From NCBI RefSeq assembly GCF_022539665.2, contig NC_081340.1, forward strand, positions 4,154,001 through 4,218,000: a stretch of 64,000 nt of DNA, read 5' to 3'. Below are positions 1 through 42,799 of this stretch, in pieces (position 1 is the first letter of the stretch; each line of letters begins with the position of its first letter). The translations under genes were made by a program, and so were the position numbers. Below the pieces are notes generated by a model. That model had not been told where the DNA came from. It searched no databases and saw only the letters and a list, made by a program, of their open reading frames with translations. Origin of the DNA: Daphnia carinata. Taxonomy: Eukaryota > Arthropoda > Branchiopoda > Diplostraca > Daphniidae.

Positions 1-614
1 AAGTCGAGGCGGCAACGACGTCGGTATCTTTGACAATCAGATCTGTGCATGTCTATATAACAAGGACGAAAATAAGGTCTTGTAGGGTGGTCGGTAAATC
101 CAGACGAGGGAATTGTTTGATTGCTCTTTTGACATCCTTCTGATGACTTGGGGACGCACGGTAATGAAGAGAGAATAGCCCTTAATACAGTCAGAAATAA
201 AAGACTATGAAATATTTTTGAAAACAAGTTGAAAAGGGCAAAGCTACCGACCTTCAACCTCTAGACTATGTTCCCTTTTCTTCTTTACATTTAGAAAAAT
301 TCCTGTGCGTCTTTTTGATTCCCATGCAGAGCAACTCAGTGAAGACACGCAGTTTCATTCATAAATTCATAATCCTCTAGACTTGTATACCGATGCCACG
401 ACACATCGCAATTCACACTTGATATCTAATAAGACTGGCGATATTTAAACTTGCTCATGACCTATTCGCCTTTCCTTCTAAGTGATCCTCCGACCGGGAA
501 AATTCATTGCTGTCATTAATTCGAGGGCATTGAACTGCCCTGCTGGACAACAACATTTCAGACCAACTTGTGATGGACCAGCCCGTTTTACTTTCAGTTT
601 TACTTCAGCCTGTA

Positions 615-1005
615 ATCCAGTATTAAATGTTTTAATTGGGAGTCCAACTTTACTGGTCTAAACAAAACTAAAAGAGACGTTGGCAGATGTGAGGATATGA
701 TTGAGAATGATGCCGTTTATGAAGAGCTTATTACTCATGTTTGCGTCAATTCTTTGAAAGTGGGGGCATTTGTGCCCCACAGGGATATCAACAGCCTCCG
801 TCTACCCACTGAGGGAGCATTCTTGTGTACCATTTGAAACTAAACACGGGGTTTCCGACAACAATTTCTCTTGCGACTCCCACGATCCGTTTTTTGGGTG
901 TTCTTTGAGAAAACTTGAAAAAAAGAGGACTACATGTAAATTCAGAAAGAGGCTGGTCAGAGATAAACGGTCGGTAATTACAATATTACATGTTACCGAA
1001 GATGG
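615..1005 (+). repeat. Paired palindrome block C (partner 21,315-21,705)
   Basis: Both copies share runs such as CATGTTTGCGTCAATTC, CTGAGGGAGCATTC and GATAAACG followed by AATTACAAT and TTACATGTT. Identity is roughly 70-75% by eye over about 390 bp with small indels. The 770-1,063 open frame lies in this block but is not kept open in the partner. Confidence 0.8.
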
Positions 1006-1449
1006 ACAAGCTGCTGGGAAACAAAATATTTCTTCATTCATAGCCGAGTTAAGAGGAGCTTGAAAACATGCGATGTATTGATGACGGCACATCTCGGATG
1101 GAATTGTAATCGGCAATCACCGATTAGTTTCTCACGTTCATCGAAAGTCGATACTTGTTTTGACGAAACCATGGGCTAAGAAACAACTGTTCACGAAAAA
1201 GAGGAGTTAAAAAGATTAGGTAAGGCTCTTCCACTCAAACTAAGAACATCAAGTTGCGTGTGGAGTTTAATCATTTCATCAACAAACGTCGGCTGATTGT
1301 AGACAGATAATTTCGGGCTGCGACTAACAACACGTACGGTTTCATAAGCGAACCGCTATACAACTATCAAACACAATGTAGAGATAAGACAAATTGGAAC
1401 AATCGTTGGTGTCGATTACCTCAAGATGTTATCCTCAGCTTGCAAGGAT

Positions 1450-3390
1450 GTACTACAGTCTCTTATCCTTTAAGCAACTTACTCCACAAACTTTGGCTTG
1501 ACCTTGTGCAATTTCCATCGCCTCAGCTATTTGAACCTTCAATCAGGCAAGTAGGAGGAAGAGATCAGCAGTCGTTATGGAAGGCCGCCGTTCCAGGTAA
1601 AAAATAAAACTCGTCTCGACATCATTCGTTTACTCCCTCTGCTGTTCATGTTGGCGAAGAAGTACTCGGTTAAAGAATAACACAATCAGATTTCGCTTAC
1701 CTTTGGGGGTGCCGTTTGAATCGAAACATCAGCAAGAAACAAACGACAGCGGAAATGACAGATTTTCGCGATTAGTTGACTGAGTTATTTGGTTGGCAAT
1801 CACAGAATGTTGTTGCCAAAAGAGTACAGGACTCGTCGTCGCCACTGTGGTCCTAGACGCATAGAGCTTCTAATGAAGTGAAACATAGTTGTATAGAAAA
1901 AAAAGCCTAAAAAAAAATAGGTAAAGATGGGCGGGGTAAGGAAAGGGTAAAGAGGAAAGGTAAGAAACTTAACGAAGATTGTACTGACGGTACCTTTTTG
2001 GCAATGGGAAAAATGAGGATGGGAGCGAAAGATAATCAGTTCAAAATCACATGGGAAAAGAGGATGAGCCAGAAAGTTGAAAATAGACACGAAAAAAACA
2101 GGTAGTCGCATCGGAGAATGAATTAATGCAACACATTTCGAAAACAAATTTGCAGAAATACACTCCCACCCAAGTTGTTGAATGCTTTTCTTTATCTGTC
2201 CTGTAAACGTTTTATAGATTGATCGGCAATCTTCATTTTTAAAACTATTTTCCCTAATATCTTTAAAATAATATGCTGAACAAGGTTCCCGATACGAGCC
2301 ATTTTTCATCTGGACAGATACACGGTTTTGCTGAACGAGACCAAGGCCCTCCCACGATGGTAAAGCCACAAACATCTCTACAAATATTTCTCCATATTTA
2401 ACTTTTATCTCTTCACTATTTTCCCTTTCTGTTTTGGTGATTATCCTCGAAACTTTGTTTGTATTTTTTGTGGTTGAATTTATGGTTGGTCAAACTCATT
2501 TGAATAAAACCTGACCGTGTAATTGTGGGTAGAGTTTTTCTGTTTTTATTATCCAACAATTCGGCTCTTATGGGAGACACGTGGATTTTTCCCGCAGCCT
2601 TTGACCTCTTGATGATGCTAGGTATATATGTTCTAGTTTCCTGAACAAGGCAGCTTTTATTTCAGCCTAAATTATTTGCGTTTATGTGTGTACACCGGGA
2701 GGGCAATAAGGAACGTGCCAGTGTGTTCACGGGAGTTCGGTACAATACACACCTGTGCGCTATGAGTTAAGCTCTATTCTAAACGTGTATGAACTCTCAG
2801 ACAGTACAAACTTCGTTGGGGTCCAAAAATGGAGACTCATTTTGTGGTACTCCATTTCTTTTTTTTTCTGTTAATTTCCTTTCCCCTGTTCTCTTTTTTT
2901 TGTTCTCATGTATGTGAGCATTTTGACAAACGGTTGAGCCCGTTGGCGTTTGTGCCGTAGTTCCCAACAACTTAACTTTGCCCTTTTTCAAAATTACTCT
3001 CTTTCGTTTTCCATGTCTCATTTCCAATTCTCGGAGAAAAAAAGAAAAAGGTAAACGGCACCTAACCTTTGTACCATTTTCCTTTTTTCTTTAAACAATT
3101 TTTCAAACCCGTATGTTGTCATTGTTACGGTTGAAAAAAAAAGAACCCCGCGGCCTTTAAGATAAACCGCAATCCATCTATAATTCGGACAGCAATTTTT
3201 ATTTTTTCGCTGAGATTTGATAAATGATCTTTGAAGCTTTTTGAAGGTCAGATCAATGTTCTAGTATGATTAGAAACCGCGATGACATTTCATCTTACGA
3301 GATGGAGATGTTACCCATAGCTTTAAAAAAAAAAAATTGTGACCGTAAGACTAGACAAATTGTACTTCATTTATAATGTCAACCAACTTT
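1450..3390. other. Left-arm segment without a mirror partner
   Basis: The flanks pair with 20,930-20,960 and 20,420-20,645, but the roughly 1.9 kb between them has only about 0.3 kb opposite. Either about 1.6 kb was inserted on the left or it was deleted on the right. The segment is AT-rich with poly-A/T runs and has a 191-codon minus-strand frame (1,800-2,375) that resembles no family I know. I saw no terminal repeats or target-site duplication, so no element type is assigned. Confidence 0.5.
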
Positions 3391-3394
3391 AGCA

Positions 3395-3675
3395 GTTGCC
3401 CGGAAGCATCGGCTGGCTAATACAATCCATGGAGTCCAAGACGGACGCAAGCTGTGCAGGCCCTACTGTCGGCACCGATACCGTTTCAACCGGCACTTTC
3501 ATTTTCCCTGTTCCCAACTGGGCACGGTTCTTAATTCGTGTAATAATTTATGCAATAAAAAAAGTACCTACCGTTGGCTCGGAAGGTCACTGGTCAAGTG
3601 ACACTTTCCAACTAACGGTCTGTTTCTCCGAAGAAAGTGACCGAGTGTGGGACCATAGAACAACGGTATAAACAA
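3395..3675 (+). repeat. Paired palindrome block E (partner 20,420-20,645)
   Basis: Shared runs are CGGCTGG, GCACTTTC next to a TTTTC tract, and CTAACGGTCTGTT, in the same order on the opposite strand of 20,420-20,645. The 91-codon frame here (3,396-3,671) is broken in the partner by indels and stops, so block conservation does not support a protein. Confidence 0.75.
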
Positions 3676-3939
3676 CAGGGACCACAACAAGTCTGCTTTC
3701 CTTTTCATTAAGAAGTTCTTTAAAAAATCACATAAAACACATGGTGACAGTAATAAAAACAAGGTTTCCTATGGCAATTTGATAATGAAAGTGTCGCACA
3801 CAACCTGGGTGGGTAGGGAGGTTAGGGGGACCAACATTACAGACCCATTGGCTGTTTCAGGTATAAAGGCTTTCCCTTTCGTTATCTAAAACTTGTGATT
3901 ACTTTATGTTGAAAATTGAATGATTTCACTGCGGATTCG

Positions 3940-4340
3940 TTGACGAAGAGGTTCCGGCCCATAGAAATATTCAACAGGATTTCGTTAGACTAGTGAGGGA
4001 TAACGGAGAGGAAAGATGTTCAACTTAAAATTGCATGGGAAGTTAAACAACCCACCCCCCAAAAAAAAAAAATTGTTTTGACCACAGCAATTCAAGTACA
4101 AAATGTTGTTCGGTGAAGGGGCCTACGTAATCACAAAGAGAAAAAAAAATATGTAGGTTAAAGAAGAATAAAAAAGAATTAGGGATAATAAGATAAAGTG
4201 GGCTTACAAGTCTCTGTACAAAAAATCCTATAATATCTGTCCAAACTGGATGCTCCATTTTACTCAGTGGGCGATCCACTTGTTTTGGTGGGGGGCTGCT
4301 ATGATTGCACGGTGGGATACTTTGATGTGTACACACACAC
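3940..4340 (+). repeat. Paired palindrome block F (partner 19,735-20,115)
   Basis: Reverse-complement matches include AAATTGCATGGG(A/G)AGTTAAA, TTTTGACCACA followed by CAAGTAC, and CGCACAGTGGGATAC opposite TGCACGGTGGGATAC. These lie in mirror order, about 75% identical by eye. Confidence 0.82.
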
Positions 4341-4350
4341 ACACACACAC
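4331..4350. repeat. (AC)10 microsatellite
   Basis: Ten uninterrupted AC dinucleotides. They are absent from the mirror position in the right arm, so they probably arose after the duplication. Confidence 0.95.
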
Positions 4351-4599
4351 GTAACTTGTAAAACAGGGCGTCATCATCCAAGGGACGCCAAAAAAAAAAC
4401 ATTTCTACAATTTAGAAAGAACATACAAACACGGTGAATTGAAGGAGGGTAACAACATGAAGGAGGTTATTATGAGGCCCCCGTTCTTACTGAAGTAGAT
4501 CAACAGTGGAGGGGGCCGGGGCGAAAGGCCATAACACACACGAGCAAGAGAAAACGGGCAGTGGCGGCCACAATCCATTGCGAGCTAGTTAACTATCTT

Positions 4600-4960
4600 C
4601 ACTTTGGTCAATAATGATAATGAAGCCTAGACTAACTGGACGGCGAGAGGACAAGAAAGTAGGAGGTCCTCTTATTGTTCTTTTCGGCAGCTTTTGTGTC
4701 CAGTCCACGCAAGACTCTACTGTTATTAAATCGAGCGCGGCCTTATAATTTTTATCGCCTCCTAATTAGACAACAAACCCCAGTTTTGCCCTACTTTTTC
4801 AAGGTTCTTCAGCGTAAGTACTTCTACTAGTTTTTTTTTAGATACTCCGCAGCTTCACGCGCCCGGCCAAGTCTGGGCACACGCACGCCACACACGAAGT
4901 GCGTCCATAGGCGGAAGTCATGTAATAAAAATCACCGATAATAGAAGAAAGAGAAATGAA
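4600..4960 (+). repeat. Paired palindrome block G (partner 19,160-19,465)
   Basis: Shared reverse-complement runs are GTTAGTCTAGGCTTCATTAT, CAAAAGCTGCCGAAAA, CTAATTAGGAGG(C/T)GATAAAAA and CGCACTTCGTGTG. This is one of the clearest pairs, about 75-80% identical by eye. Confidence 0.85.
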
Positions 4961-5214
4961 AGACATTAAAGTTTAGAAATAAAAAGAAAGCTGAGCATTG
5001 GCTTCATGGCTTAACAGCCAACTTTCCCAGACGAACGATGGATCAAGTCATTTGCATAGTAGTTGGAATTCCATGTCATATTTGATTTTTACCTTCTATT
5101 GTAAGTCTAGAGGTAACAGATGGTAATGATCTGTCATCGCTTTTTTTGATGAAAGGTTCGTATTATTGCATAGATTTCTTTACTTCTGGAACTACGCCCG
5201 GACCCAATTGAAAA

Positions 5215-5375
5215 ACAATGGCGTCCCCGCTGAGTTAATCTGTTTTCTTAGAGCTGAGATTCTTCGGAACTCGGGAGCCCCTCAGCGGGAATCAAACCAC
5301 CGAGTTACCCTGAAATCCACTCTGAATCCCATCCAACTTTCACCCTGGCCCCACAAAATAAATCAAACTGGACGA
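5215..5375 (+). repeat. Paired palindrome block H (partner 18,765-18,890)
   Basis: GTCCCCGCTG, GCCCCTCAGCGGG, CCAACTT and TGGCCCCA with ATAAA are repeated in mirror order on the other strand of 18,765-18,890. The 103-codon frame here is not preserved in the partner. Confidence 0.75.
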
Positions 5376-5805
5376 ATTCAAGACAAATCAGAGAACAACA
5401 ATCTCCACGGGAGACGCACGTCTTTTGAAATTTCAATCGTCTATTGTTTTCCCTCAACATCTATACAATGTGGATAAGAGAGATTCTCCTTATAGGCTAG
5501 TATATACAAGCGAAATGATTCAAAATCATAGTGACACACATCACTTCTATGCAGGCTGCATTCACTATGCATTCCTTAAATTTGCATGTTCGATAGACTT
5601 TGGCACTTTTAAATATGTCGAGTTCATCTTGCACATTCAAAACTGGGGGTTGTTTGAATGGCTAGATCAAGGGATAGCGATGCATGAGGTTTGTAACCAG
5701 GACAGGCCTACTGACCATCCTTTACCACTTGTTTCGTCCCACATGTCCAGTTGGGTTATTGATGGGTGTCTTAACCAAATAAACTGCAACAGGTCGATTG
5801 ATGAA

Positions 5806-6066
5806 TGAGTCATCTGTGGCAAACAACGGCTCACTCATTGATCACTTGATAAGATACACTGTTTAGCATGGATCGTTGGACTTGCTCGATTCGAGGACAG
5901 GGTTTCAAATAAATGTTGCTTAAAAAAAACGATTTGAATTATCAGAATTTAAATAATCGCTGGTTTGATTTTGAGCTTTCAAATCATTTTGTGCGAGTTG
6001 TGTACCATTCCCTAATGAGTCATTGCCTCATGGAATTGAGCCATTATAGGTGACTCATCTGACTCA
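5806..6066. promoter_or_regulatory. Cluster of four TGASTCA (AP-1/TRE-type) sites
   Basis: Perfect heptamers lie at 5,806-5,812 (TGAGTCA), 6,016-6,022 (TGAGTCA), 6,051-6,057 (TGACTCA) and 6,060-6,066 (TGACTCA). Several near matches (CTCACTCAT, GCCTCATGG) lie between them. By random expectation about 0.03 such sites would fall in 260 bp. TGASTCA is the site of Fos/Jun-type and related bZIP factors. I did not see the heptamers at the mirror position near 18.1-18.4 kb, so the cluster may be specific to the left arm. Function is inferred from motif density only. Confidence 0.4.
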
Positions 6067-6654
6067 TGAATATTCACGAGCCCGCGAAAATTTAGGGTAA
6101 GGGCTCTTCAAGCTATTCATCACTGTTCTTTCCCGGGTATTTGGACCTCTACACCTGCTAAACCTTTTTTTTTTTCAAACGTGTCTATCGGCCTGCACTG
6201 GTGTAGTAAATAACTTATTCTATTCTCATTTTCACTTCCCGGATAGCCATAAATTCATGGCGTATTATCCTGAGATCGTTGACAATTTACCAGTTTATGA
6301 ATCTTTCCTTTTTCTGAAGAAATGCGGTAGCTCTGTGGGGGATGCTGTAATCGAATCGCATGCACAGTTGCCTCTTCCTATGGTAAATCAATACAGTTGA
6401 TGCACCGCTGATATAAATCAACCCAATCGCCATTAAACGACAAGCGTGGATAATATTTCCTATTCCAGACCCTTCTTCGTAAAAAAGAAATAGGTCACCA
6501 GTCACAGTAGAATTCTAGGAATGCAATATTCATTGATTTGCTGGAATCTATTTTCATTACGCACAGGTGCTGCTTTTTTACGCAATAAACATGTACAGGG
6601 TACAGTCAATGTCGTTGGCGGACTATGTCCACCTGTGTCGGAAGGAACAATAAA

Positions 6655-6735
6655 TTTGACCTCTGCCGTGTTGCTGTGACAGTCTGGCAGGCGACACTAG
6701 CGTTGCCAATGGCTCACAGAGACCGACGTCACCCC
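6655..6735 (+). repeat. Paired palindrome block J (partner 17,565-17,660)
   Basis: The runs TTGCTGTGACAG, CTGGCAGGCGACAC and CACAGAGACCGACGTC are all found in reverse complement at 17,565-17,660. This is about 85% identity over 80 bp, above the arm average. Confidence 0.85.
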
Positions 6736-8164
6736 CTCTTGTCATCGGTTGCAACCCCCTCCGTTTTTCTTTTTTTTTTTACTTCTTGTTAGATAGGAAT
6801 GACCGTGCGATATTACCTTAATCTATTGTGCTGCATTGAAGCGAACCAACGACGCATTATTATTCACTGGCCGTCAGGTTTTTACGAGGCGCCATGCAAC
6901 ACTCGAGAACCGGACTTTATTGTCTGAGCTTTTTCTGCTGAAAATTATCGTTCTTAAAAGAAAAATGAATACACAAATAAGTTCAAATTTGATTGTCTGT
7001 GGAAGCCGTGAAGGTAAATTGATAATAATAGCAAAAAATGATGAGCCGTTGTTGTTTTGAGGCCGACCAAGGTGGGCTGCCCAAACAAAAATTCGCCGGC
7101 TTTTGTATTTGAATCTTCCGAGTCGAATGCCAAACAATACGAATAAAAGAAATGGAATCTATTGAGAACAAAAAAAAAAGGCGAGGACCAGCTGCTATTT
7201 CAAATTTTGAGAATATATCAACACCAGTGTATTATTTTGGGTATCAGCCAAACACCTTCAAATAGCTTCAATTGTTTACGCATTTTGGAGTAATTAAAGT
7301 TGTGTGTGTTCTGTGGTGTTGGGCATCATATTCGAAAGCACGTGTGTTAGCCCTGCAACATGTTACGTAATCGTAAATCAAACGAAATGGCAACAGGAAG
7401 TGAGTATTGCAATCGAACACTTCAGATATGTTACCGCGTACGTCTCTTACGACTTTGATCTTGAAATTTCATTTTCCATCCCTAATAAATCTATACTGGT
7501 ACGTCAAACTCTTCTTTTATTTTCCCCTTTCGTCCGAAAGTAATCAAACAAAATGAAATAACAAAAAAGGTCAAATTGAACGAATTTCAGTTCTGTTTGC
7601 CCGCTTATCGCAGTTTGCTTTAGATAACCCATACCCTTTGCCGAGGATCCTTTCCCCTTCCCTAGAAAGAGATCAGTTTCGTGGAGAGAAAAAACCAAAT
7701 TCAAGGTGAAACGAAAAATGAAAGAAAAAAAAGGGGGGAGGGTTACAAACGGTGCCGCCATGATTGCTATGGCCGTGACTAGAAACCAAGAGGAGAGGTA
7801 GGCAGGGTAACTAAGATAGGGGGAGAAGTAAGAAGACGGTTTGAAGACAAAAAAAAAAGGGAAAAACGAAAGAAAGACTAAGAATAACGCAAAACTTGTC
7901 TGTCATAAAGAAAAAACGCCCACTCAGGTAGATATTTCAGGAAAATTTCACTAAAGAATCGACAAAATTGGCGAAAAAGCAAACGTTACGATGAATAGGA
8001 ATCAACACTGAAACTATCCCCGATTCAATTTTGGGTTAGAAAAGGACAATGTCCTTTTCGATTGATGAAATGGACTTTGCATTGATTTCCATCTATATTC
8101 TTTTTTTTTCACCGCATTAAATCTTATTTCTTTTCAAATTTCGCTTTACCTCGTTCATACTCCC

Positions 8165-8525
8165 TTCTTGTCGGTGTGTGTGTGTGTTAGCGTGTACACT
8201 TTAGAGCTCCACCTCCTAAGCTAACCCTATAGTTACAAGTGCTATGTTTAGCTACCACGCTACCCTTTCTTGTTGGTGGGCTCTTACAAGTACGAAAAAG
8301 AATAGAAAAGGACAAGCCGCCATCGAATGACTGTGTCATCAAAGTCGCCACACAAAGGCAATGTTTGGAAACAACTCGCAAGCTGATTGATGCCGACAAA
8401 TAACCCGTTGTCCGATGCCAATCGGAATGAAACATTTCCGCTGTCTTTTGCTTTATTCTCGAACTGATGTCGCGAGATCGAAGTACACGAGGAGATCCGT
8501 AGAAACAAAGTCGCTGACAGAATGG
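8165..8525 (-). repeat. Hyperconserved palindrome core, left copy
   Basis: This matches the plus strand of 15,365-15,740. The segment 8,270-8,408 has one mismatch in 139 bases against 15,505-15,643, and about 265 bp are roughly 96% identical, while flanking arm sequence is around 65%. A frame is open in both copies on corresponding strands (8,187-8,435 minus, 15,373-15,726 plus). Several of the few substitutions change amino acids, so protein constraint does not explain the identity well. The core contains TGATTGAT at 8,384-8,391, a form bound by PBC/Hox pairs such as Exd-Hox. It may be a regulatory element, a non-coding RNA or a gene-conversion tract. Confidence 0.85.
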
Positions 8526-10934
8526 TTTGTAAAAATCTAAAAATGGAAATGTAAGGTATTCAGCTTATTTTATTCCCCTGCATTGGTGCATTTAAACAGC
8601 AGTTTCAATAATTGTTGAGGGCATTTCTAAAGTATAAATTGTTTTCCTTTTTTTACAATAAAGCAGGAGGGATGTAAAACAGTAAAACCGCTTTTCCGAT
8701 GTCATTATTGAGAAAATTACTTGGCTAGTAAAAATAAAATTTGAAAATGGAAGGCCACCAGCCCTTGGTTCTCTTGTTATTACACTTAAAAGCTGAAATC
8801 AAATTTCGAACGTAACGCATTTCATTCCGATAAAATACCATAATCAACTTAAGAACAATCAGACTCTTTGACCACATACAAAAGCTCTTTAATTACAGAC
8901 TTGGATAAAGAGCGTTCTTTCCCGTACAATCTGTCATTCTACATCGATTGTACGAAAGGTTACGAACGAGGCCATCACTAGCTCGGCTCATACAGTGGGA
9001 ACATGGTGGAGCTTCTGGGGAGGTGCCGAAAGAAAGATCGTTTATTCAAGTATCATAACATGTTCGCAGAACGCCTTATGGGATCGTCTGAGGATCAAAC
9101 CCCCAAAAAGAAAAGCAGGACCCTCTCATTAGATTTGTGGGCATCCTTTCAATCATATCCTCACATCTGCCAGTCTATACGTAAGAACCGGAAAAAGGCC
9201 AACCGTTTTCAAAGTTTTAATTGATAACAATGTACCACTCAAACAATTGAGGTTTACATCAATACACTAACTATGATATGCCTAACATTTTCATTTGTAA
9301 ACAGCCAACAGTGGGTCATAAAAAAGCCTATATTCAAAAATTTTAAAATGATTGATCACCTGTTCCTGTATCCGTTTACAACCTTCAAAGATGAACAAGC
9401 CTGCACGGAAAAAGAATAGGATAGTTACCATCCACTAGCTTCCGGTCCCGAAATTCAATCCAATGATGAACGAATTCATTGACCCAGTGATTTTTTTTGT
9501 TACTTTAAAAAAATGTACTTAAGTTAAGTGAGCGGCCAAGGAGAGAAAAAGCCGACGAATCTGCAGATTTGATGGCCACGTCCCAACTATACCACACATG
9601 AAGAAATGTCGGTTTGTTTTGAGCGAAAGGGAAAATGATTGGTGTTGTGCCAAAACATAAGGAGGAGCAGCTGACGGCCAAGAAAAGGGATGATCTTAAT
9701 AACAAGCCGCTGATTTATTGCATGTGCCACACAGTGTGTGTTAGTGTTTGTTTTGTGTGTTGGCGTGTTGCCGACTGGCACATTTCGTTTAGCTTTGTCA
9801 ACAATAAGAGAAAGCTAAAGAAAAAAAGAATAGATGATTTCCTGCTTTCTCTTTTCGTTCAGAATTTTCACTACATGGTGACAATTGGCAAAGACTAGCT
9901 ATAATTAACCAAAATGTCTTGTCCAGCAGGATCATTTCAGCGCTTCCGTCCAACGTCCAGCTTGGAGTTGTTCGTTAGCCCTTTCGCTGACGTTGGCAAG
10001 TACCAAGGCATATGGAAATCTTCGACAGCTACAAGAACTGACGAACGCCACTGTTCATTTGTATTCAACAATGTATCACTGGATAATGAGTTTATTATGG
10101 TAATTTTCAATGTCTCTAGTAAGAAACCTCCCTGGTTCACACGGGAGCAATATGGCAGGCCGTATAGTGGACACAATTTGATGATTAACAGAATTATTGC
10201 ATAGAGCAGTCACTTTCTCCCTTTCCCTTTTGTTTTACCCCCCCCCCCTCTGCCTTATTTGCATATCCTTAGTGACAAAAGAGCCGACTAGCTCCACGTT
10301 ATTCGACTCCTTTTATTTCTTTACCGTTCTACAAGAAAGTGATGGCGTCTTATAACGTTTTCTCTTTCTTTTACACCAGAGGCCTAACTCATTATCGTTT
10401 CACTTTCTTTCTCGTTGACTTATAGTTCACTTCGCCGCATACCCAGTGAACTCATTAAGCAAGGACGTTTGTTCTTCATTAGGGTAGCAGACAAGATGCG
10501 GTGCCATCTGCTTACCTGATAATACGATTTTCATTTTCTACCGTTACTTCCGAGTGTCAGAGCAATTTGTTGTATGATGCAGCGGGAGTCTTAACTGTAA
10601 GAAGCTTCCCTCATTTACACGCAATAAAAATACAAATGAAAGTGATTTTCGTAAATCATACTTTGTTGCTGCAAACTGTTGGCCGTTACCTCCTACATGG
10701 TTTTTGAATTAAGGAATGCAGCGGGAGGTGTTAATGGAGACGATGCCCCCCACTGTGCTATCCCGGGCTTAGCCAGCGCGTTCGGGATCGAGCCCTCGGG
10801 GCTTTTCATGGTGGATCGGAATATATTACAGGCAAAGCACACCTATTCAATTGAAATAGGCAGACAAGGCACGGTCGGAGGTGTGTCCTACTAACCGATA
10901 AGGAAATTAGAATGGGGCTTATGATGGCAAGCGA

Positions 10935-11180
10935 TCGATTATCACGCAATCGTCGTGTTCGTTCTGAGGACTGGCCAAATAAAATGCGGCTGTAATAATG
11001 TCTCGTGAAGTTATGACGATCGTAAAACTATCGATGGGCTCGTATTATAAACAATTATACGCCCCGAAAATAGCATCCATTATCGTTTCTTATTTTTTTA
11101 ATTTCCTCAACAGACATCACGGTAGTCTTTTTGTTTAGTACCGCTATAGATACGCCCGTGTGTTTCCATCCGTGTTTATT
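10935..11180 (+). repeat. Paired palindrome block O (partner 13,680-13,970)
   Basis: CGATCGTAAAACTATCGATG, AAACAATTATACGCCCC, TTTGTTTAG(T/C)ACCGC and CCGTGTGTT recur in reverse complement at 13,680-13,970. About 60 bp around 11,015-11,070 are near 85-90% identical. The shared ACTATCGATG resembles the DRE/BEAF-type core ATCGAT. No coding potential is shared. Confidence 0.83.
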
Positions 11181-12099
11181 ATGCCTATAATACCGCCGGC
11201 CATAGCAGTTGTAGAAAGAAATGAAAGAAGGGATGTTTGAAATGAACGAATGAAAAAAAGAAGCCCGGGATACCCTCATCACGATGAATTTTCGACTACA
11301 TTTTTCTTTTGAAAATAAAATGTTCTTTAAAGAAATGAAGCAGCGTGTAAAAGAACGTTGAAAGGAGAGTGCCGCCGTTGTGGCCTGTCTCGAGTGACAT
11401 TCGTATTTATGTATTTCTTTAAAGGTTCAGTCATTATTTCGTTTTGCTGCAGCACCACAAACAAGCCAACAACAACTTTGTTATACAGCCCTTGGGGGCA
11501 TTCAACTTTAATTATCTCGAACCAGGTATACATGCCCATTGGATCCGTAGAAGTTCATCGTTTCTTATGCTCATGATTTCAAATTTAAGAATCATAGGGA
11601 CTGTACGGATGTAAAAATAAAATTTATTAAAACTCAACAAGCGCAGGGAAACAAAAAAAAATTAAACCCACCTATTCCACTTTTCTTTTTCAAGGCCGAA
11701 TAAATTCTCCAGTAAACTGGACAATTTTCTTTTATTTATTCATCATCAATTTCATTTCACAAACGTTATCTATTGATCATCATGTCTTCGATGGCTCGCG
11801 CCAGGAAGACACGAGACTAGGTCAAAATAATTTTACTGGAATGTTTTGTCCTCTTGAGTGCTGTCCGTTTGGTTGACGTATGTCCACTCAAAGATCTTCA
11901 TTGTTACGTTGGCTGTTGATACCAACACAAACGGAAGCGAAGAATGAACTATCATTCAATCGTTGTTGACAGAACGAAACTCATGTTGTTGACGGAAAAG
12001 GCCCCACTTCAAAAACCACAGCGTCCAGAATTGCGAACTGTTTGTTCCAGCGAGCCCTGTACCTCGCTACACGCAAAAGAAAAACGCGTATACAAAAGA

Positions 12100-13000
12100 C
12101 GGTACACAATGCATTTTGAATGGTATAAACGTATGACAGCTACACAACTAAAGGCTTTTTTTTTCTATAGTTGTTTCTACGATTGCAACTGTCTAAAGCG
12201 AGTACTGTATTGGAAAACAACAGCTGTTCCCATTGATAGTCAGCTGACTTCAAGTCGGGAACAACCGCGGAGGGTAGCATGTCGTTAAATGACACCGTGC
12301 TAACGCGTGCCTAATCACCTTCTGCGAGAGCCATCGCTAAAAACCGCGTCTAGTTTTATTGCACGGTAACAGTGATGGAGTTTTCTTTTAAAGTTTTTCG
12401 TATTCTAAGAGGTTTTGGCACAAACCCTCTCAGCAGCTGGTTAGTTTTTTTTTAATTCATTAAAAAAAAAACCATTCGTTACTCTTTCAACAGTTGAGCA
12501 CGCGCGTCAGATGGCATCCGTGCGAAACGGATTGCAATCTACTCGAGCAATAAGACTGAAAAGTTTTTAGATATGAATCGTGTGACACTACGACGCACTC
12601 GTGCATTGTGAAACAATCAATTGTATCAGGGAATTTAAAGTCTAAGGGGACGGGTAGGTTTATTCTAACTTGTTTTTGTTTTTTGTAGGAAGCCACTTGT
12701 TTAATTTGACTTTTTACTGGTTATGTCATTGGAAGGCACGTTGTTGTGATGAGGCCACCGTTTTCCCCGTGTGGCCGATCTCTTGTTATTGTAGATATTG
12801 CTTAGTCATTGCAAGGTGTGTGCATACAGGAACGTTAGCCAACCGATGTGTCTACTTAACAACGGCCTGGTACATGATCCACAATTGTATCCATTACTTT
12901 CGTTTGTACAGCGAGGCTTCCCTCCGTTATTGTTTGCATAACCGAGTCATCCTGTCTAAAGTAGATCTATCTTACAAAAGGTAAGTACACGTTTAATGAT
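12100..13000. other. Central spacer of the palindrome
   Basis: About 0.9 kb between the last traceable arm matches, with no clear self-complementarity. It contains the element at 12,301-12,540 that recurs near 57.7 kb. The open frames here (for example 12,670-12,984) have no recognisable domain. Confidence 0.45.
12301..12540 (+). repeat. E-box/CACGCG element, copy 1
   Basis: Three collinear blocks match 57,662-57,856 in direct orientation: TAACGCGTGCCTAATCA; TTTGGCACAA with CAGCTGGTTA; and AGCACGCGCGTCAGATGG followed by CGTGCGAA. Conserved motifs are the E-box CAGCTG (12,434-12,439), CACGCG (12,499-12,504, the class C form bound by Hairy/E(spl) repressors) and the E-box CAGATG (12,508-12,513, a form favoured by Atonal/Neurogenin-class proteins). 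An enhancer role is inferred from the motifs and from an atonal-family gene in the window. Confidence 0.55.
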
Positions 13001-15364
13001 ACCCATCCATTTCAGTCCAGTCGTGTTCTCCTCCTACTTTTTCTTGTACAGCGAAAGCCATCCACAGTTTCTCAATGGGTCGTTCCCCTAAACGATGGTT
13101 CTCACGGCTTATACAGTTGCTCTAAACACAATCAAAGTGGAATGTGTCGTGGCATTTTCTTTGATCGTCGTTGTCATTAACAGTTGATTCACAATATCGT
13201 ATAACAACTATCAATCGTTCCATCTGGTCAGGGAACATGGCTACTTTTTTCAAACGAACACAAGAACAGACTTGAAATTGAATTGATACTGGGTTTTTGG
13301 AAGAAGGTTAGTAGTCTTCCTTTTATTATTATTAATATTTTTTTACGACCATAATCCCAACTTCCTCAAGTTCAGAATTTCAAACTGCAGTAGCCTATCC
13401 GTCCAGTTGATACAAGGAAAATCTTTGAAACTCAGATGATAACAACAGTATCTGCCTTAGGTAATTAAAAGAGAAACCCTAAAATGTCGGTAACAAAGCT
13501 AACTAGCCACCGACCTTAAAAACGAAATATTCGTCCTAGCCCCATATATACGCAGCAAAAGATAAATATGTCATACGAAACGAGTAAACGGCGGCAGCTA
13601 TCCCTTTTAAAATGCCGCTTAAGATTTCGTTTTCTTCTGGAGCACGGGTTCTATTTGTGGCATTTTTTAATCGAAAAAAAAAATATGTTTAGCGTGGCCA
13701 TCCAACACACGGATTTATCATTGGCGGTGCTAAACAAAAAATAAGAGAACTACCGTGGCTGTCCAGGGAAATTTAATTGTTATAAAAAAATAATAAATGG
13801 TAATGAATGAAAAGAAATGCTTTTTTTCCGGGGGGCGTATAATTGTTTCTAATACGATCACATCGATAGTTTTACGATCGCTGTAATTGCCCGTCATTTC
13901 ACTTGGATTATTCACTCGCGTCACGACATTCATACGAACGATTGCGTGATTATTGCTGCTAGACTGACGTCCTCATGAAGCAATGAACACGCGCAGATGA
14001 AATTAATTTCACTTTCTCTTCCGCTCAGCTCAGAGACGTTGTTTTATTCTTACCATTTCTCTTGTTCATTGATTTCAGCCATGAAGGGGGAGTGTCCTGA
14101 TTGTAAATCAGTCCGTCTTTGTCCCGGCAGCCCCAGTATTTCTTTTATTGTTTGTGAAGTGGACACGTTAAAAATAAAGTGAATGGATTTCAATCGACCG
14201 GCTGCCATTGGTCCTTTATTTGCCATTCGGTTTTGTTTTCTGCTAAACAGTTGAAATGGTTTGCCCTTCGTTTGCAACTCAAGGCTGAAATGACATGGAA
14301 CCATCAATCCAGGTTTCCTTTGGCCGACAGGTGGTCACTGGGTACACACATTGACGGCACGAGATCCTTATTTTTTGCGCATTTCGTTCTTTATTCACCT
14401 GATTTCAACAAAAAAAAATGTGTAATTACGTATTTCCACTCTTCAGTCGGCTGTTTCCCTACACTTTCGTTTTCCACTTCGCTCTCTGCGGCGAGATGTA
14501 ATAAAAAATATTACGTATGATTTCCACTGGTATTTCCGCCGCTGTTCAACCAGCGGCCGTTTACTTGCTGCGATGAAAAAGACTTTCAAACTGAAAATAA
14601 CTTACCTCGGATTAAAAAAAGGATTTCTTATGGCGGTTGCATCTGACGTTTAACTCTTCGTTTAAGCAGGTGGTATGCATAATACGTACGGTCTAAGCTT
14701 GTCTTCCCATACGGTAGCAGGTTAAGTGAAGTTAACGAATACAACAGACGAGAAATGGAAAGCACAAGGCCAAAATGAAAGGGAAAATGTTACGAGACGT
14801 CATCGCTTTCCATCAAGGCATAGGGTTAAATGAGCCTAATTAAAATAAAGCGTGAATTTTATGGTCTGCTCTTTTAATAAAGGCGAAATCAAGTTAAGGG
14901 AATGGGATAAGAGCCTTAGAAAGTGAAATTTGTTTTATATAACGTGAAAAGAGAAAGTGAAACTTCGATAGGGTACTGGATCATTTCTCCAGTTAATTTT
15001 ACTGACATAACATTAGATTTGAGACGAATACTTCCCAACTGCTCTTAACCGGATGAAAGACCACTCTTTATGAACCATTTTTTAAATTATGCAGACTGGA
15101 CAAGTTGTCAGCGATGGTTAAATTAAAAAAAGGGAAAACAAAGGAAGTCGTGAGTTTGAACTTTCTCTTTAATATTGGCTAACTCAATCAAATTTGCACC
15201 CGTCAGTCGGCGACTGGCCACTCGCTGTCATGTTTGCCATCTCGCTGACACCTGCTTCCTCTATTTTACGTCTTCAATCTCCTTAAGAGAAAGCTTTCCC
15301 CAAAAATAAATCGTTTTCCAAACTGTAACTAACGTTAATTTTATTCAAACGGCTGTCGTTTTTA

Positions 15365-15740
15365 ACAATCTGTTGAAAGGCTTCAGAGCGACAGTCAGTG
15401 GTTTCTATATGAATCTCCTCGAGCTATTTCGATCTCGCGACATCAGTTCGAGAAAAAAAAGCAAAGGACAGCGGAAATGTTCCATGCCGATTGGCATCGA
15501 GACAACGGGTTATTTGTCGGCATCAATCAGCTTGCGAGTTGTTTCCAAACATTGCCTTTGTGTGGCGACGTTGATGACACAGTCATTCGATGGCGGCTTG
15601 TCCTTTTCTATTCTTTTTCGTACTTGTAAGAGCCCACCAACAACAAAGGGTAGCCTGGTAGCTAAACATAGCGCTTGTAACTATAGGGTTAGCTTAGTGG
15701 GTGGGGCCCTGAAGTGTACATGCTAACACACATACCGAGA
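15365..15740 (+). repeat. Hyperconserved palindrome core, right copy
   Basis: Mirror partner of 8,165-8,525. The near-identical segment is 15,505-15,643, with the Exd/Hox-like ATCAATCA at 15,522-15,529. Identity drops on both sides: towards 15,365 a small indel appears, and beyond 15,740 only scattered matches remain. A transcript crossing both copies could fold into a stem of about 350 bp with a loop of about 6.8 kb. Confidence 0.85.
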
Positions 15741-16427
15741 AGAACCCCCTTCTTCTGTATGAAATGAGGGAATGATTTGAAGGTAGGTAAAAAAGTTCGA
15801 ATATGAAACAAAAAGCATTTGCAGAGCTGCGATGAGAAAAGGTTTAGCTAGAAAAGCATAAATATAATTCCATTCATTTTTATCTTTATTTTTTATTTTA
15901 GCGTGGTTGAGTGACGGAGTTGGGCTCGTAAAAGGTAAAAAAGGTCCTTCTCTCCGAGTGATGAGTCAATCAAAAAGCACGAGCCGCTTTTGAAGCTCAT
16001 CTCCCTGGACATTTTTGAATTGCCCGCCATCCGCTGTTTTTGTAGACTTTTAATGTTTACCGTCCCTTCATCCCTACAGCAAAAACCGGTTTGCCGTCAA
16101 CAATGAACATTTTAATGGCACCACAAAAAAAAACCTTTACCTCAATCTTCTTTTTCGATTATTGCTCGTTTTCCTGAATAAAAGGATCTATTTAGTTTGG
16201 AAATAAAATCCTTTTAACGACTTGACGAGGTGTGTAAACAAAAGACTTTAGAACCGCATAAAAACGAGATAAATTCCAAACTAGATTGAGTTCTCCAACA
16301 GATGTCATCATGTGCTATTTAATGTTTCATAGCTTGACACTTTCAGTTTTGTTTTTATCCTCAAGGTTGTTGAACAAAAACAAACAAGTCTAGACAAGTA
16401 AAAGAAAATTGCGTTAGAAAATATGAC

Positions 16428-16502
16428 ATGTCTGTCAATATAGATAAAATTTTGTTGTTTGTGAGATGTCTTCCCATATAGATCACATTTTGTTGTATAT
16501 GT
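16428..16502. repeat. Two-copy tandem repeat, 38-bp period
   Basis: Two adjacent units begin ATGTCTGTCAATATAGAT and ATGTCTTCCCATATAGAT, and each continues into a CATTTTGTTGT-like run. About 80% identical. No function is suggested. Confidence 0.7.
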
Positions 16503-19500
16503 TTCTTGTTACAAAAAGCTTTCCCATCCTATTTCTTCGGCCTCTTTCTCATCCCTTTCGTTGTATGGGATTATAACGCGATGCACAAGTGTGGCGGTAT
16601 GTGAACCGCGCGTTACCCTTTCCCCGGAGAAAGCATCATGGTAGGGCACACAAATGGTCCTTGTTTAAAGGATAAAAACTGCAATAAACTGACTGGCAAC
16701 AGTCATCAGCTGGCCATTTGTTTTTCGTCTCGAAGTTTGAAAATTGTTTGCTGAACTTGTGAAACAGTTCCCACATAAGTTCCCACATTTCGGTAAGTTT
16801 TTTTTTATCTTTATTTCAAGAAAAAATTGCCACTATCTGTTACTAGGTCTATTACTAGGTGTCCTTTCCTTCTCCCATTGTTGTTCCGTTACAGTTCAAA
16901 TTTAGCTTCCAGGTTAAATGTGGTAAAGGTTCGAAAATGAACCCCCACCGGACCGTTGAGTTATTTCTAAAAAAACGCGCAAACAACGAAAACTCGAAAA
17001 GTAGGGCAAAAAGGTCATAATTGTGGATGTGTTCGCAGATGATGGTCAATGAAATTGCAGCCGGCTCTTTCTCTTTCAGTATTTTTGTGGTTTCAGTAGA
17101 TCTCATTGGCTTTTCTTTTTTCATCCGCATTGTTCTCCATTCGACTCGGGAGTCTGTACACAAAGGCCTGCACTGTTCTTTCCGATGGTCCCATCTTGAA
17201 CACAACAACGGACCATGTTCCTATTTGCTATTATTATTTTTTTTTTGTTTCTTTGAGAAAATTTGCTATGCGTTCAGGATTTCTAAAAGGCCGCCGACTG
17301 AATTCATTTGTTTGTTTACTGCAATTTTCTTGTTTGACCTTGGACATTATTCCGAAGAAGGATTACAGTAAAAAAAAATACAGAAGAAATTCGATTAAAG
17401 TTGGCCATAAAAAAGACAATAAGACAGGGCGGGGGGCTGTTATTACGATCGTTACTCTTTGGTAAGACGTCGACCGTCAAGGAATATTGTTCCAGTGCAA
17501 TATACAATTGTGTGGCATAAAGCATTCACAGATAACAAGGGTTGAGAATAGAGGGGGGTTAACGGTGAGGACGTCGGTCTCTGTGAACCATTGGTAACGC
17601 GTGTGTCGCCTGCCAGGCTGTCACAGCAATAACAAAGAGGGGGAAATTTATTGCCGACCACCCTGCCGACTCAGGTGAATATGAAAATATGTTAAGACGA
17701 CACATAACATTCGAGGAATAAAACAGCATGTTCTCATCGTTCCTTGGATTTATTGCATAAGATTGTATAGGCTTGTTCGAAAAAAGGGTGAGAAGAAACA
17801 CCTGTATATTGGAAATGGATTTGAAGCCGTCACCTGTGGGATTCATGGAACTCTGCTGGAATGATTTGAAAATCATTGGAATCTGATGGATATGTAAGGA
17901 AAAAAACTGAACAAACTTATTTTCGTGTTTCTACAGTTTTGGCGATAACGGCCAATATACAAATTTCGCTATAGCTTGGCGATGTGGTAGAACTCAATCC
18001 ACTGGTCAGGTGCATGATGAGCTACTTCATTTCGCACAGATGGTAAGGTAAAATTAGTGAGATAACCGAATTTTCTATGGTGTTTTTGCAGATACCAGAC
18101 AGAAACCCGATTTCGAATTGATTGCAATATATGCAGACTGTACCACCCACCGGTTACAGGATGTATCTGTGGGCACTGATAGAAACCATAGGTGGCATGC
18201 ACTCCTGCCAAAAACGATCTTCACCCCCGTGGTCTTATTCATCATTCAATTTGTTTTGCAAAATTTTTCCTTCAGACTCGATATCCTAATCCAATTGAGT
18301 TCATTCAGAAATACTGAAACATCTACGCAATTTGGTTGACCACTCCAAGGGGATCCACGGTCAACAGCCTGGTCAATGAATGAACCTTTTGCATCGGATC
18401 TCATTCGTCACGTTTCTGTCACTATCTAGTGGAAGACAAGAGGATCTCATCAATATTCGCAGCTGGACGTGTGGGACAGAAAGAAAGTGGGAACTATTGG
18501 AGAGGCTTATCCCTTGAAACTGACCATTTGGAACGTCAGTTTTCATTTCACTCGGAGAGACGAAGATGAAAGAAGCTACTCCCAAGTGCCAAGTATTTGC
18601 CTTATTAATTATGCAAAACTTATTTCCAGGAATGCACATCTCATTGATATCCCACATTTTTTTGTTTAGCGATTGCAATTGTTATTCAGAATCTTTCAAC
18701 GTTTTCATTGTAACCGTTCGATGGAACCAGTCAAATCTCCTGCGGAGAGTATTGTTTTTAGTTCCTTGTTTGTTTAGCTTGAATTTTTTATTCATGGGCC
18801 AAAAGAGAAGTTGAGGAACGTACACGATCCCCGCTGAGAGGCTACCGAAATCCCGAAACTTAAACAAATAGAATTTACACAGCGGGGACACTGTTCCCAC
18901 TCAATAGCTCCAAAACGTAAACAAACGCAACGCTAGAAATCTATCAACACTATCCGACTATGACTGATTATTACCACCTGTTGTCCTTCTTCAGTAGCAA
19001 CAGAACAAGTAAAATCACGTGATGAATTTCCCCCTGTGTTTTCTTTTGTTTTCTTAAATTCATCTTGGTAGTTTATCGGGAATTGAACTTCTTTTATTTC
19101 AACGCGTGCTTCTCTGTAATTTTGTTATTCTCCTTCCTATGATTACTAAGAATTTTATTTTTTCCGATTACTTCCGCCGTAGACGCGTGAAAACGCACTT
19201 CGTGTGCGGTGAGCGTGTGCTCGGCGCCAAGCGGAAGCTATGCAGAATATGAAACTGAAAGCTCCTGAGGGTTTTTTTTTCACCTCTAATTAGGAGGTGA
19301 TAAAAAATGATAAGGCTGAACCCCAATTAAATAACAAGTCTGTGGAGGTTGGTCTGGACAAAAGCTGCCGAAAAAAAAGAGGAAACAAGTAAAAAATGAG
19401 CTAACTCTTGGCTTTGCTCTAATATTGCCGTCGAGTATACTCGTTAGTCTAGGCTTCATTATATGGCCATTGACCATAGAGACGGTTAACTCATTGCAGG

Positions 19501-22390
19501 GATCCTGGCGCTTGTTGCACCTTCTATTGTTTATCCCCGTGAAACACGAACAAGACCCACACGTTCTAATGTAGCCCCCCTTCTTTTGTGTTACCTTCCT
19601 TCTTAACCTTGTTTGTATATTGCTTCTAATCATTGTCTAACACTGGACGTACTTATTGGCTTTCTCTCTCTTTTTTTGTTGTTTTAGATTGGACGTTCTG
19701 TGACGTAAGTGTTGTATGTGTCCACATGGAAGTATCCCACTGTGCGATCCTATCATCTCCAAACAAAGGAGGCAAGGTCGCCCGCCGAGTCAAACACCAA
19801 TTGGACATATTTTGCCACGATTTCTCCTTTTTGTCTCGTACAACAAAATGTATGCCCACCCCTCCATGCCTGAATTTTTGTTCATTTTACTTTATGACCT
19901 CTAATTTTTTTTTTGTTCTTTCTACCTCTTCCCCCCATGTGATGACGTTTTAGCCCGCAAAGGAACATTGCCGTACTTGAGTTGTGTGGTCAAAATCATT
20001 TTCTATTTAACTCCCCATGCAATTTTGTAGTCTGGCAACCTCTACCTAATGATGCTTGATCTAAGTCAAAGAATGTGTTGAAGCCGCTAGTTTTCTCGCT
20101 GCATTCAGGGGGAGCCCAACGGTCAATGAAATAGACTAGACGTTGCAGTGCTAGAACTAAACAAATTTCAGTGTTACTGAATGGAACAAAAAAGAAGGGC
20201 AATTCTAAACAACAAAAGGGAGAGTCTTTCAAAGTGCCCTCTACTTCAGTGGTCAAAAATGACGTATCCCCCTTTGTGTCTACCTCCCATGTTGTTGTAT
20301 GACACTTTCGCTACCTTTACAATTTTCCAGGCATTCAACAAACTTTATTGCTGTCAACATGTGTTTGATGTGATTACTTTGGCTTCTGGAACGAACTTTA
20401 GATAGACCTTAATGTGCATTGTTTACCGTTTCTTCCACCCGGACGGCCTCATCACCTAGAGAACAGACCGTTAGCTGTACACTGAACTACCTTTCTCAAT
20501 GACTGGGGTGACCGTTTTTCTTATGTTGGACGACCGTGGATAAGAAAACGAAAGTGCCATGATTGCAACGGTGAACCGCTAAATGAGATCGCACAGCCTG
20601 CATCGGTGGGAGCGTTGTCCAGCCGGCGCTTCCGGCAAGGTAAGACAATTGGCATTGATATAATACTTGACTGTGTTACAGCACAAACATATAGTTTGTG
20701 TTACCTGTTATGGATTGAGGTTGTTTGTGTAGGGAAATAGCGTCGTAAAGGTTAAGTTCTTCTTCTAACAGCTGTGAATCTTTTGTTTCTTTTGATCGAT
20801 TGGGTTTTGCTAATTTTTAAACCAAACGATGGTGCAGGTGATGACGTAGTTCCATATAAACAAGGATAGCCTTGCGCTGGTTTGCGGTTATACAGGACGA
20901 GATCCACTTTGAGATGGCGGGGCGTAGTTGAGATAACATCTTTTAGCGTTTGAAACCATTTTACACTCTTGTTTGTCTTGTTTACGTACGTTGTGAGGCT
21001 GTGCCAATAGTTTGGCGGTTATCCTTTCTACGATTAGTGCATGTTGTTTAAATTGAAGCTGTAACAGGTACACCGGCCAATCAGCCGATACAGATGTTCA
21101 GTTACGCTCTTCCGCAATTTTCTTGTTTTCAGTGTTTTATTTTATCCTTTCTAAATTGTATTTGATCAATCGTTTTGATTCTTTTCGTTCGCTAAAGCAA
21201 CAACAATCTAGCGAGCCTGATTCTTGATTATACGGCATCCTTCGGTGCTGACATCACTTGTACGATCACTACCCTCAAGTCATTGCTCATGAAACATGAA
21301 GTAAGAGATCGCTTGCTCAAATAGCTTTAACAACATGTAACATTGTAATTATTAAACGTTTATCCCTGGGTCAGCCTCCTTTAATTCTTGTGCATACCAC
21401 TCGATTTGTTTCTCTGTCCAAGTCCAACAACTCCCACTAGAATTTGTGTAATAGATCTCTGTTAAGCTTTGATTGGCAGACAGGAATGCTCCCTCAGTGG
21501 TGAATCACTGATGTTCTTGGGAGGTAAGCAAAACGCCTCCACTTTGAACGAATTGACGCAAACATGAAGAATAAGCTCTCGATTTTTATAACCTCGCAAT
21601 GACAGGAAACAAGAGTCTGAAATGCTCACATCCTCCCCACCTGCCCTTTGGTTTTCTGATCGGGTCAGCCTCCCATTCGAAACGTTTAATACTTAATGAG
21701 AGGTTTGCGCATGCTCGAACATAACATTTTTTAGGCCAGCGATAACGTATTAGTATTCCCTAATAGTCTGGCATTTTTTCTACAGACCTGGAGCCTGTTT
21801 TTTGCATTTTTACCTTAACGGCCCGTTTTTTACAAACTTTATCCCAACTTTTACTTTCCGTTCACATTGTAATAATGACATTTCTGAGGTTAGATTACGT
21901 TTTTGATTTGTTTTGTACTCTATTGATTTGATTCTCATTGTTACGTTGAGTTCACCATCAATGCAACAAGAGATAGCGGTGAAATGGTTGAACCTGATTA
22001 TGTCGCAGATCCCGTTGTAGAAAGAAACGAGGTCAATAGGCCACGAACGTTTCAAGTTCACCGTATGACGGGGACACTAGTTGACTAGTTGTTATAGAAG
22101 ATTATGAATTTATGAATGAAATCAAGTCTCGTTGGATTGCCCTGCATGGGAATCAAAACTTGGCAGCGATTCGTGGAAGACTAGAGAAAAATGGGAGTTG
22201 AATGCGATAGACGGTAGGATCGCCCTTGATAATAAAGTTGACGTCTCTCATGCTCTATAATGCGCCCCAAGTCATCAAAAGGATGTTAAAAAAGTAATCA
22301 AACAATTCCTCCTTTTGGATTTTACCGACCACCCTATGAGACTCTTCCCTCGTTGTTGCTATAGACAATCAATTGTCAAAGACACCGACT

Positions 22391-31170: not shown

Positions 31171-31177
31171 GTAGAGC

Positions 31178-31212
31178 TATAAAAGTGAGGGTTTGAGCTG
31201 GTTGGAAGTCAG
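31178..31212 (+). promoter_or_regulatory. Core promoter of the atonal-family gene (TATA + initiator)
   Basis: TATAAAAG at 31,178-31,185 is followed 33 bp downstream by TCAGATC, whose A at 31,211 fits an arthropod initiator. This gives a 5' UTR of about 150 nt before the ATG at 31,361. That leader has no other ATG. Confidence 0.7.
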
Positions 31213-31360
31213 ATCAGCTTGTGCTTTGCTCCCGTGCACACCTTCAATTCCTTCTCGCTCGCTCCCTCTTATTTCAAAACATCCAACTTTTGCCTCTTCT
31301 CTCGCTACTCGTAAGTGTAACAAGGAAGTCTGTCGACTTTGGAAATTCAGTGACACAGAG

Positions 31361-32215: not shown

Positions 32216-32860
32216 AGTTCCACTAAATGCTGTTTTGAAACGATTATTGCTGCACTTGTTGCCATTTCGAATTCATCGTTTGAAACTCTGAAGACGGGTT
32301 GAAAACTAATTCCAGTTAATCACGGTAAAAGGAGACGTAAAGTACCTCATCATTCATTGTATGCCTCCCCTTCAAATGTCAGAGTGTTTAGCATAAATAG
32401 TAAATTAAGACTTGAGATCGTGGCGTACATTCGCCTCTGAATGGGAAGCGATTCAGGATAAAGCTCGGTGAAAATATCGAAAAAAGAAATTCATGGCTTT
32501 TCACCATGACATTTCCTACTGTTGTTATTGCATACACATAAATCTAGTCTCTGTTTCGTTGATGGTGCCCGGTCGGCCGCTGTTTCTGACGCCGACGACG
32601 CCATTTATTGTCTGTTGCCTCAAGTGTATAACTCTTTCTCTCTCTTTCGAGTTAGGCCATCTTTCGACATCTTCATCTTTTGAATAGTTGCCTGTCTTGA
32701 CCTCTCCTCATAGTTGCATGCATAGGGTCTCGATGTGAACTGCATTCGTAATTGGAGGCTGTTCAACTCTCCCGTATCTTACCTTGTTTCGAATTTCTCT
32801 AAATGTTTGCTGGCGAAAATAATTGCACAAAATTTACAATAAAGAAAAATAGAAAAAAAA
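32216..32860 (+). other. 3' UTR of the atonal-family gene with AATAAA signal
   Basis: About 640 nt run from the stop to AATAAA at 32,838-32,843, the first canonical signal I see downstream. The predicted transcript is about 1.65 kb. I found no clear copies of the fly Bearded-type 3' UTR boxes, though short motifs are easily missed by eye. Confidence 0.6.
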
Positions 32861-42788: not shown

Positions 42789-42799
42789 AAATAACGGTT

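Follow-up and report, generated by a model that had tools for sequence, protein, structure and literature searches.

An old inverted duplication with arms of about 45 kb around an atonal-family gene in Daphnia carinata, and a mosaic within the exon that points to gene conversion

Neighboring paired transcription factor genes with shared regulation are familiar from engrailed and invected in insects. The nearest published case that we found to the locus described here is the Dlx pair of Capitella teleta, inverted paralogs for which, in the available part of the report, conversion was inferred and a fragment of 150 bp was detected by Geneconv (PMC3199776). Like that pair, the Daphnia atonal locus is an inverted pair of developmental transcription factor genes for which conversion is inferred from near-identical nucleotide stretches; however, the Capitella genes lie tail-to-tail, with conversion that takes in the homeobox and a portion of the intron, whereas the Daphnia genes are head-to-head, their arms of ∼45 kb are still alignable, and near-identical islands occur in noncoding DNA too. 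The GC content of the Dlx tracts is given there as the same as that of the rest (PMC3199776). Old duplicates kept alike in stretches by conversion are also known from the mammalian BMP8A/B, DDX19A/B, and TUBG1/2 pairs, in which conversion has lasted over 100 million years according to the accessible sections of that study (PMC2720389). For those pairs selection was ruled out by the similarity of introns, and the pattern was shown in several species, whereas our case uses synonymous sites and comes from one genome. The palindromes of mammalian sex chromosomes are likewise inverted repeats homogenized by arm-to-arm conversion, but in the excerpts available their arms are over 99% identical, whereas here only islands are so alike and the aligned background is at about 68% (PMC3723533, PMC8981503). 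As far as the extract of a further report goes, duplicated Dscam exons of Daphnia magna and Drosophila carry no signs of conversion (PMC3236188). Among the papers listed, judged by title and the opening of the abstract, none concerns an inverted atonal duplication in Daphnia, and the available portions of two papers give no count of Daphnia pulex atonal genes (PMC1828162, PMC2958161). The kind of locus is already known, and what is unusual in Daphnia carinata is how long the arms are that can still be aligned and how sharp the patchwork within them is.

The window is the whole stretch of 64,000 nucleotides that was analyzed; coordinates are window positions, negative ones lie to the left of base 1, and 100 kb of flank was taken on each side. 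In the window's own assembly an inverted repeat extends between about -34.2 kb and +56.8 kb, with its axis near 12.4 kb, giving two arms of ∼45 kb each, so that the window truncates the mirror on the left. With the search restricted to inverted orientation, 20 of the 22 matches (E <= 0.01) form a single collinear chain from -34236/56792 to 11164/13704, which in the left arm spans 30,141 bases. One intact atonal-family bHLH gene lies in each arm, with the ATG at 31361 (plus strand) on the right and at -10163 (minus strand) on the left. Because these genes diverge from start codons 41.5 kb apart, positions 1-22,390 are the middle of their shared upstream interval. The gene and the principal parts of the mirror are as follows.

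31361-32215, plus strand: right atonal-family bHLH gene, a single-exon open reading frame of 284 amino acids (Pfam HLH, E 1.6e-19)
1-12400, plus strand: inner (axis-proximal) left arm and upstream flank of the left atonal gene, in the collinear inverted chain
12401-22390, minus strand: inner right arm and upstream flank of the right atonal gene, in the same chain
11165-13703, no strand: center of the palindrome between the innermost blocks, unmatched in the chain and matching only itself genome-wide
3602-5293, plus strand: longest inner left block, 57.7% identical with gaps to its partner at 18826-20484
6625-7297, plus strand: matched block with its partner at 16961-17682, overlapping a block retained in a third copy (71943-72657)
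10926-11164, plus strand: innermost matched block with its partner at 13704-13964, overlapping a block retained in the third copy
55807-56792, minus strand: outermost matched block, at the outer end of the right arm, with its partner at -34236 to -33212

The original prediction, made from positions 1-22,390, had described at least fifteen inverted blocks in mirror order, at 65-85% identity, in arms of 10-12 kb. Extended to the left of base 1 in the flanking sequence, the mirror continues well past that interval, reaching -34236 and 56792, and the arms are accordingly much longer than predicted. Within 1-22,390, arm-to-arm BLAST gave seven blocks (E 3e-7 to 9e-83), all inverted and in mirror order, at 20-174, 272-381, 607-994, 3602-5293, 6625-7297, 8095-8508, and 10926-11164 on the left, with partners that descend from 22389 to 13704; the block that ends with 20-174 begins at -873, to the left of the window. 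The best direct-orientation match between the same two stretches had an E of only 1.3, and a reversed, non-complemented control one of only 0.046. The mirror order is thus confirmed, whereas the number of significant blocks is seven rather than fifteen or more, allowing that the 1.7-kb block at 3602-5293 could be split into several. These blocks take up 30% of the left stretch (3,690 of 12,400 bases) and 37% of the right (3,689 of 9,990), and their identity is 65-90% ungapped and 58-85% with gaps counted; four of the seven are at 58-66% with gaps over their full length. The arms are collinear and inverted beyond what chance would give, as in a palindrome that stems from an inverted gene duplication.

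Outside the near-identical islands described below, ungapped identity over aligned columns only is 67.8% in the outer arms and 69.0% in the inner arms, compared with 92.9% inside the islands. Inverted joins are a known assembly error, so that a head-to-head join, of two haplotypes or through a read chimera, could in principle give a mirror of this kind, but allelic divergence is generally far below the 31-32% ungapped mismatch of the aligned background, and the repeat is contained in one 8.4 Mb contig. We regard such an artifact as exceedingly improbable, in keeping with the earlier view that the arms are old and diverged and not freshly made by the assembly.

The duplication is inverted, and both of its genes have been kept intact: the two copies are predicted open frames of 284 codons, their proteins are 96% identical, and a PF00010 match at residues 284-335 (E 1.6e-19) identifies an HLH domain with an atonal-type basic region. 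The best named relative of the right protein is from Daphnia magna (86% identity over 83% of the query). Among the matches listed, the closest named ones are, in order, a D. magna hypothetical protein, an Aquatica leii hypothetical protein, and an Artemia amos-like protein, followed by insect atonal proteins, and of the insect proteins that carry a name in the list of 120 relatives, many are called atonal (for example P0027, with 72% identity over 24% of the query). Within the family, the gene may be an ortholog of atonal itself or of amos or cato. Genome-wide, the two arm genes are by far the top protein matches; the next two, on another contig, are at 61 and 49% and cover the bHLH part and some of the preceding sequence. 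The gene at 31361-32215 is the one gene identified in the first 57 kb of the window, and the predicted lack of a recognizable gene, which holds for 1-22,390 as tested, fails for the full arms, each of which has its atonal-family gene.

Two inverted copies of one dispersed transposon would look similar locally, and we therefore consider this reading together with copy number in the genome. In searches of the 108 Mb assembly, which skip simple repeats and very common words, all four arm probes besides the core island at 8186-8508 matched only themselves and their mirror partners (just 93 bases of the partner being recovered for the 3602-5293 probe), the core was found in three places, namely both arms and a third copy, and the center at 11165-13703 had itself as its sole match. 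Apart from the mirror partners and the third copy of the core, none of the five arm probes turned up another copy, and as far as this search reaches the arms are not a dispersed repeat; the further genome copies that mark a transposable element were absent for these probes and the center, and a dispersed transposon is hardly credible here, as the original prediction had also held of a simple transposon. No relatives were found in viral contigs and plasmids.

The likeness of the arms is concentrated in islands. Of the 26 stretches that pass an 85% filter, 8 have a length of 286 columns or more and an identity of 91% or more. These 8 occupy six places: the atonal gene, four sites downstream of it, and one upstream (8186-8508/15399-15726).

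8186-8508, plus strand: noncoding core island of the left arm, which shares 91.8% identity with its mirror copy and includes two exact runs, of 73 and 69 bp
15399-15726, minus strand: mirror copy of the core island at 8186-8508, from the arm-to-arm alignment
30970-32653, plus strand: atonal island, the right gene with its flanks, 94.6-96.5% identical arm-to-arm, with a diverged stretch (codons 170-220) inside
38165-39402, no strand: noncoding island of the right arm, 90-92%, partner at -17519 to -16299
41745-43111, no strand: noncoding island of the right arm, about 92%, partner at -21293 to -19936
47112-47797, no strand: noncoding island of the right arm, 92%, partner at -25662 to -24960
49281-49868, no strand: noncoding island of the right arm, 93-94%, partner at -27017 to -26441

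The atonal island contains exact runs of 369 and 318 bp, and when it is divided into 33 bins of 50 columns (-11453 to -9811) each holds 0-8 mismatches, apart from two bins with 12 and 10 where the exon is diverged. The island ends abruptly, the two bins immediately outside holding 20 and 23 mismatches on one side and 13 and 26 on the other. The noncoding islands have indels of 1-2 bases and 1-13 stops in their best frames, apart from the right copy of the core, which has none. GC content is 45-46% in the core compared with 37-38.5% around it, and about 50% in the atonal island compared with 37-39.5%; the GC of the other islands differs less clearly from their flanks, and GC-biased conversion was set aside.

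The atonal exon itself is a mosaic. The left and right copies differ at only 2 nucleotides in codons 1-169, both of them replacements, at 30 in codons 170-220, and at none in codons 221-284. There are no synonymous differences in the first and last segments, compared with 17 synonymously changed codons in the middle one, where dS is 0.90 and dN 0.10, and this dS accords with the 31-32% mismatch of the aligned noncoding background. At fourfold sites, 11 of 24 differ inside codons 170-220 and 0 of 114 outside (Fisher p 4e-10, with the limits chosen after inspection), and the 169-codon gap that the 22 third-position differences leave was equalled in 0 of 200,000 random placements. Such a mosaic of near-identical and diverged synonymous sites is the mark of concerted evolution by ectopic gene conversion.

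Under purifying selection alone, the islands would be ultraconserved elements, the atonal exon and its enhancers, with no exchange between the arms. Conserved noncoding elements surround developmental genes, these islands surround such a gene, and the core is the best kept of four elements shared with the third copy, all of which would suit this explanation. It leaves unexplained, however, how synonymous sites could stay unchanged over codons 1-169 and 221-284 yet be strongly diverged in codons 170-220, since selection on the protein does not freeze them in one part and spare another. Codons 1-169 are also not simply frozen, because 20 of 169 residues differ between the left copy and D. magna (19 for the right copy), compared with 2 between the arms. 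Selection by itself is thus, in our judgment, an unlikely cause of the whole pattern, and ectopic gene conversion is strongly supported as the best explanation of the exon mosaic, on the evidence of one genome plus related proteins. Polishing errors could, by reasoning, remove a few remaining differences where the copies were already nearly identical, but strongly diverged DNA would not be made identical in this way. For the noncoding islands the two processes stand level: conversion may have acted there, and strong purifying selection fits as well.

The comparison with D. magna also bears on the age of the duplication. In codons 170-220 the left copy differs from D. magna at 3 of 51 residues, compared with 8 of 51 between left and right and 9 of 51 between right and D. 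magna, and the left-right/left-magna contrast between this segment and codons 1-169 has a Fisher p of 4e-4 with limits chosen afterward. For the protein alignment and trees we used the two copies and P0002-P0010 of the 120 listed relatives, with P0002 trimmed to its first 286 residues, and excluded P0001 (the window's own protein) and P0011-P0120. In codons 170-220 the free tree joins the left copy with D. magna at a support of 100, and the tree constrained to join left with right has a non-significant p-AU of 0.082; in codons 1-169 left and right are joined with a support of only 76, and left with D. magna has a non-significant p-AU of 0.264. The closeness of the left copy to D. magna in codons 170-220 suggests that the duplication came before the D. 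magna split and, given that the alternative trees pass the AU tests, we call this greater age likely only.

Some of the upstream blocks exist a third time. Of 14 matches to left-arm blocks between -3522 and 11529, 11 lie at 64396-81960, in direct orientation and in the order of the arm, whereas the remaining three, at 85.8 and 99.3-99.8 kb, do not follow it. For the right arm 6 of 7 matches are in order (a row of self-overlap omitted). An exon-by-exon search of the interval found no HLH domain, and the third copy is without atonal. Four upstream elements are thereby kept in three copies in the same order, the noncoding, ordered arrangement looked for in regulatory elements. Identities for left-right, left-third, and right-third are 66, 62, and 53% for E1, 55, 54, and 51% for E2, and 56, 58, and 58% for E4, the copies of the latter two being about equally distant, whereas in the core the arms are 91.5% alike and each is about 60% identical to the third copy. 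Ungapped columns identical in all three copies number 194 of 342 in the core and 153 of 347, 250 of 692, and 189 of 459 in the other elements. These three-way distances give no clear sign that the third copy is older than the pair, and they set the core apart as a special feature of the two arms, where its likeness reflects either conversion or a constraint that was lost in the gene-less third copy. A glycosyltransferase-10-like fragment (22.2 bits, cut-off 23.9) lies within the third copy.

An unrecognized gene in 1-22,390 was considered and rejected. None of its 16 open reading frames of at least 100 amino acids (one screened at E 0.001 and fifteen at E 0.1) reached a Pfam cut-off, and no coding signal was found there; between 22,390 and 57,000 the screen took in the atonal frame only. 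The top subthreshold scores, in bits against the cut-off, were SAS4 13.8/24.4, SH3-C_UBE2O 13.3/21, DUF6552 16.8/27, and Hyd_WA 13.1/21. The core keeps a long open frame in both arms (125 and 138 codons), but its changes fall evenly over the codon positions (14, 14, and 15), its middle is out of register, and dN/dS is about 0.75, and we read this frame as a product of chance. Shared frames in the island at -25.5 kb change just as evenly (7, 7, and 6; other strand 3, 3, and 5). An RNA function would require that the arms be transcribed across the axis and fold into double-stranded RNA. The islands at 8186-8508 and 15399-15726 are 92% complementary and include the two long exact runs, as a hairpin would need, but its loop would be about 6.9 kb, protein-coding genes are included in the same mirror, just 30-37% of the inner arms is alignable, with four of seven blocks at no better than 58-66% with gaps, and neither an Rfam family at threshold nor a tRNA was found in the window. 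A hairpin RNA is very improbable on these grounds. Of the retained function that had been proposed for the interval, the regulatory form is plausible, whereas the Pfam and Rfam results and the codon positions of the core give no support to an unrecognized protein or RNA gene.

Taken jointly, a ∼45-kb inverted duplication, conversion in the exon, and retained blocks that act as cis-regulatory elements of both genes form the account that we hold to be quite probable. A stretch of ∼45 kb with one atonal-family gene was duplicated in inverted, head-to-head form in an ancestor of this Daphnia, after which ectopic conversion between the arms would have homogenized patches of the atonal exon and, possibly, the noncoding islands. 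From their position and retention, the surviving blocks are candidate enhancers of both genes, duplicated along with them, and a shared bidirectional regulatory interval would be the simplest working picture. More tentatively, and with the balance of our judgment against it, the palindrome could be a conversion machine maintained for a proneural master gene, in which the inverted geometry enables exchange and selection keeps the exchanges that fall in exon and enhancer islands, so that the gene copies and their enhancer sets stay in concert while the intervening DNA drifts toward saturation. The locus is an old palindrome with partly alignable arms around a key developmental gene, and the contrast between converted and diverged DNA is sharp within one exon. 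If the islands prove to be homogenized independently in other Daphnia, they would offer a natural test of whether conversion persists mainly in functional DNA and of how two divergent copies share a duplicated regulatory landscape.

Several further features were seen in the flanks. Genes with cadherin domains lie in mirrored arrangement on both sides of the palindrome, at -54.5 to -48.8 kb (L008-L009) and 87.8 to 92.1 kb (L016). In a comparison that gave 289 matches, those starting at -64.4 to -58.2 kb being left out as repeat, the cadherin matches listed were only 23-44% identical over 40-247 residues, and for this reason they were not counted as an extension of the palindrome. Near-perfect palindromes of about 5.7 kb (-64033 to -58359, L007-L008) and about 4.8 kb (108513 to 113350, L018) are 97.7 and 98.0% identical to their own reverse complements and 88-89% to each other, with related sequence at 136-139 kb; they are probably a mobile or repeated element, in which the longest listed frame has 131 codons. 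The frame at 62057-62899 encodes a low-complexity protein rich in alanine, serine, and proline, and that at 60707-61297 a repeat protein rich in glycine, tyrosine, and serine with a tandem DNA repeat inside; neither has a Pfam match, and frames similar in make-up to the latter lie at about 150.7 and 159.7 kb. Elsewhere in the genome, two more atonal-family bHLH genes (L024 and L025) face each other ∼44 kb apart at G000:C3:11819025-11819294 (plus strand) and 11863530-11863895 (minus strand). A comparison of 6 kb pieces around them gave an inverted match of 562 columns at 59% and two weak ones (E 0.004 and 0.009), so that a second inverted pair, made up of the closest relatives of atonal, may exist on C3.
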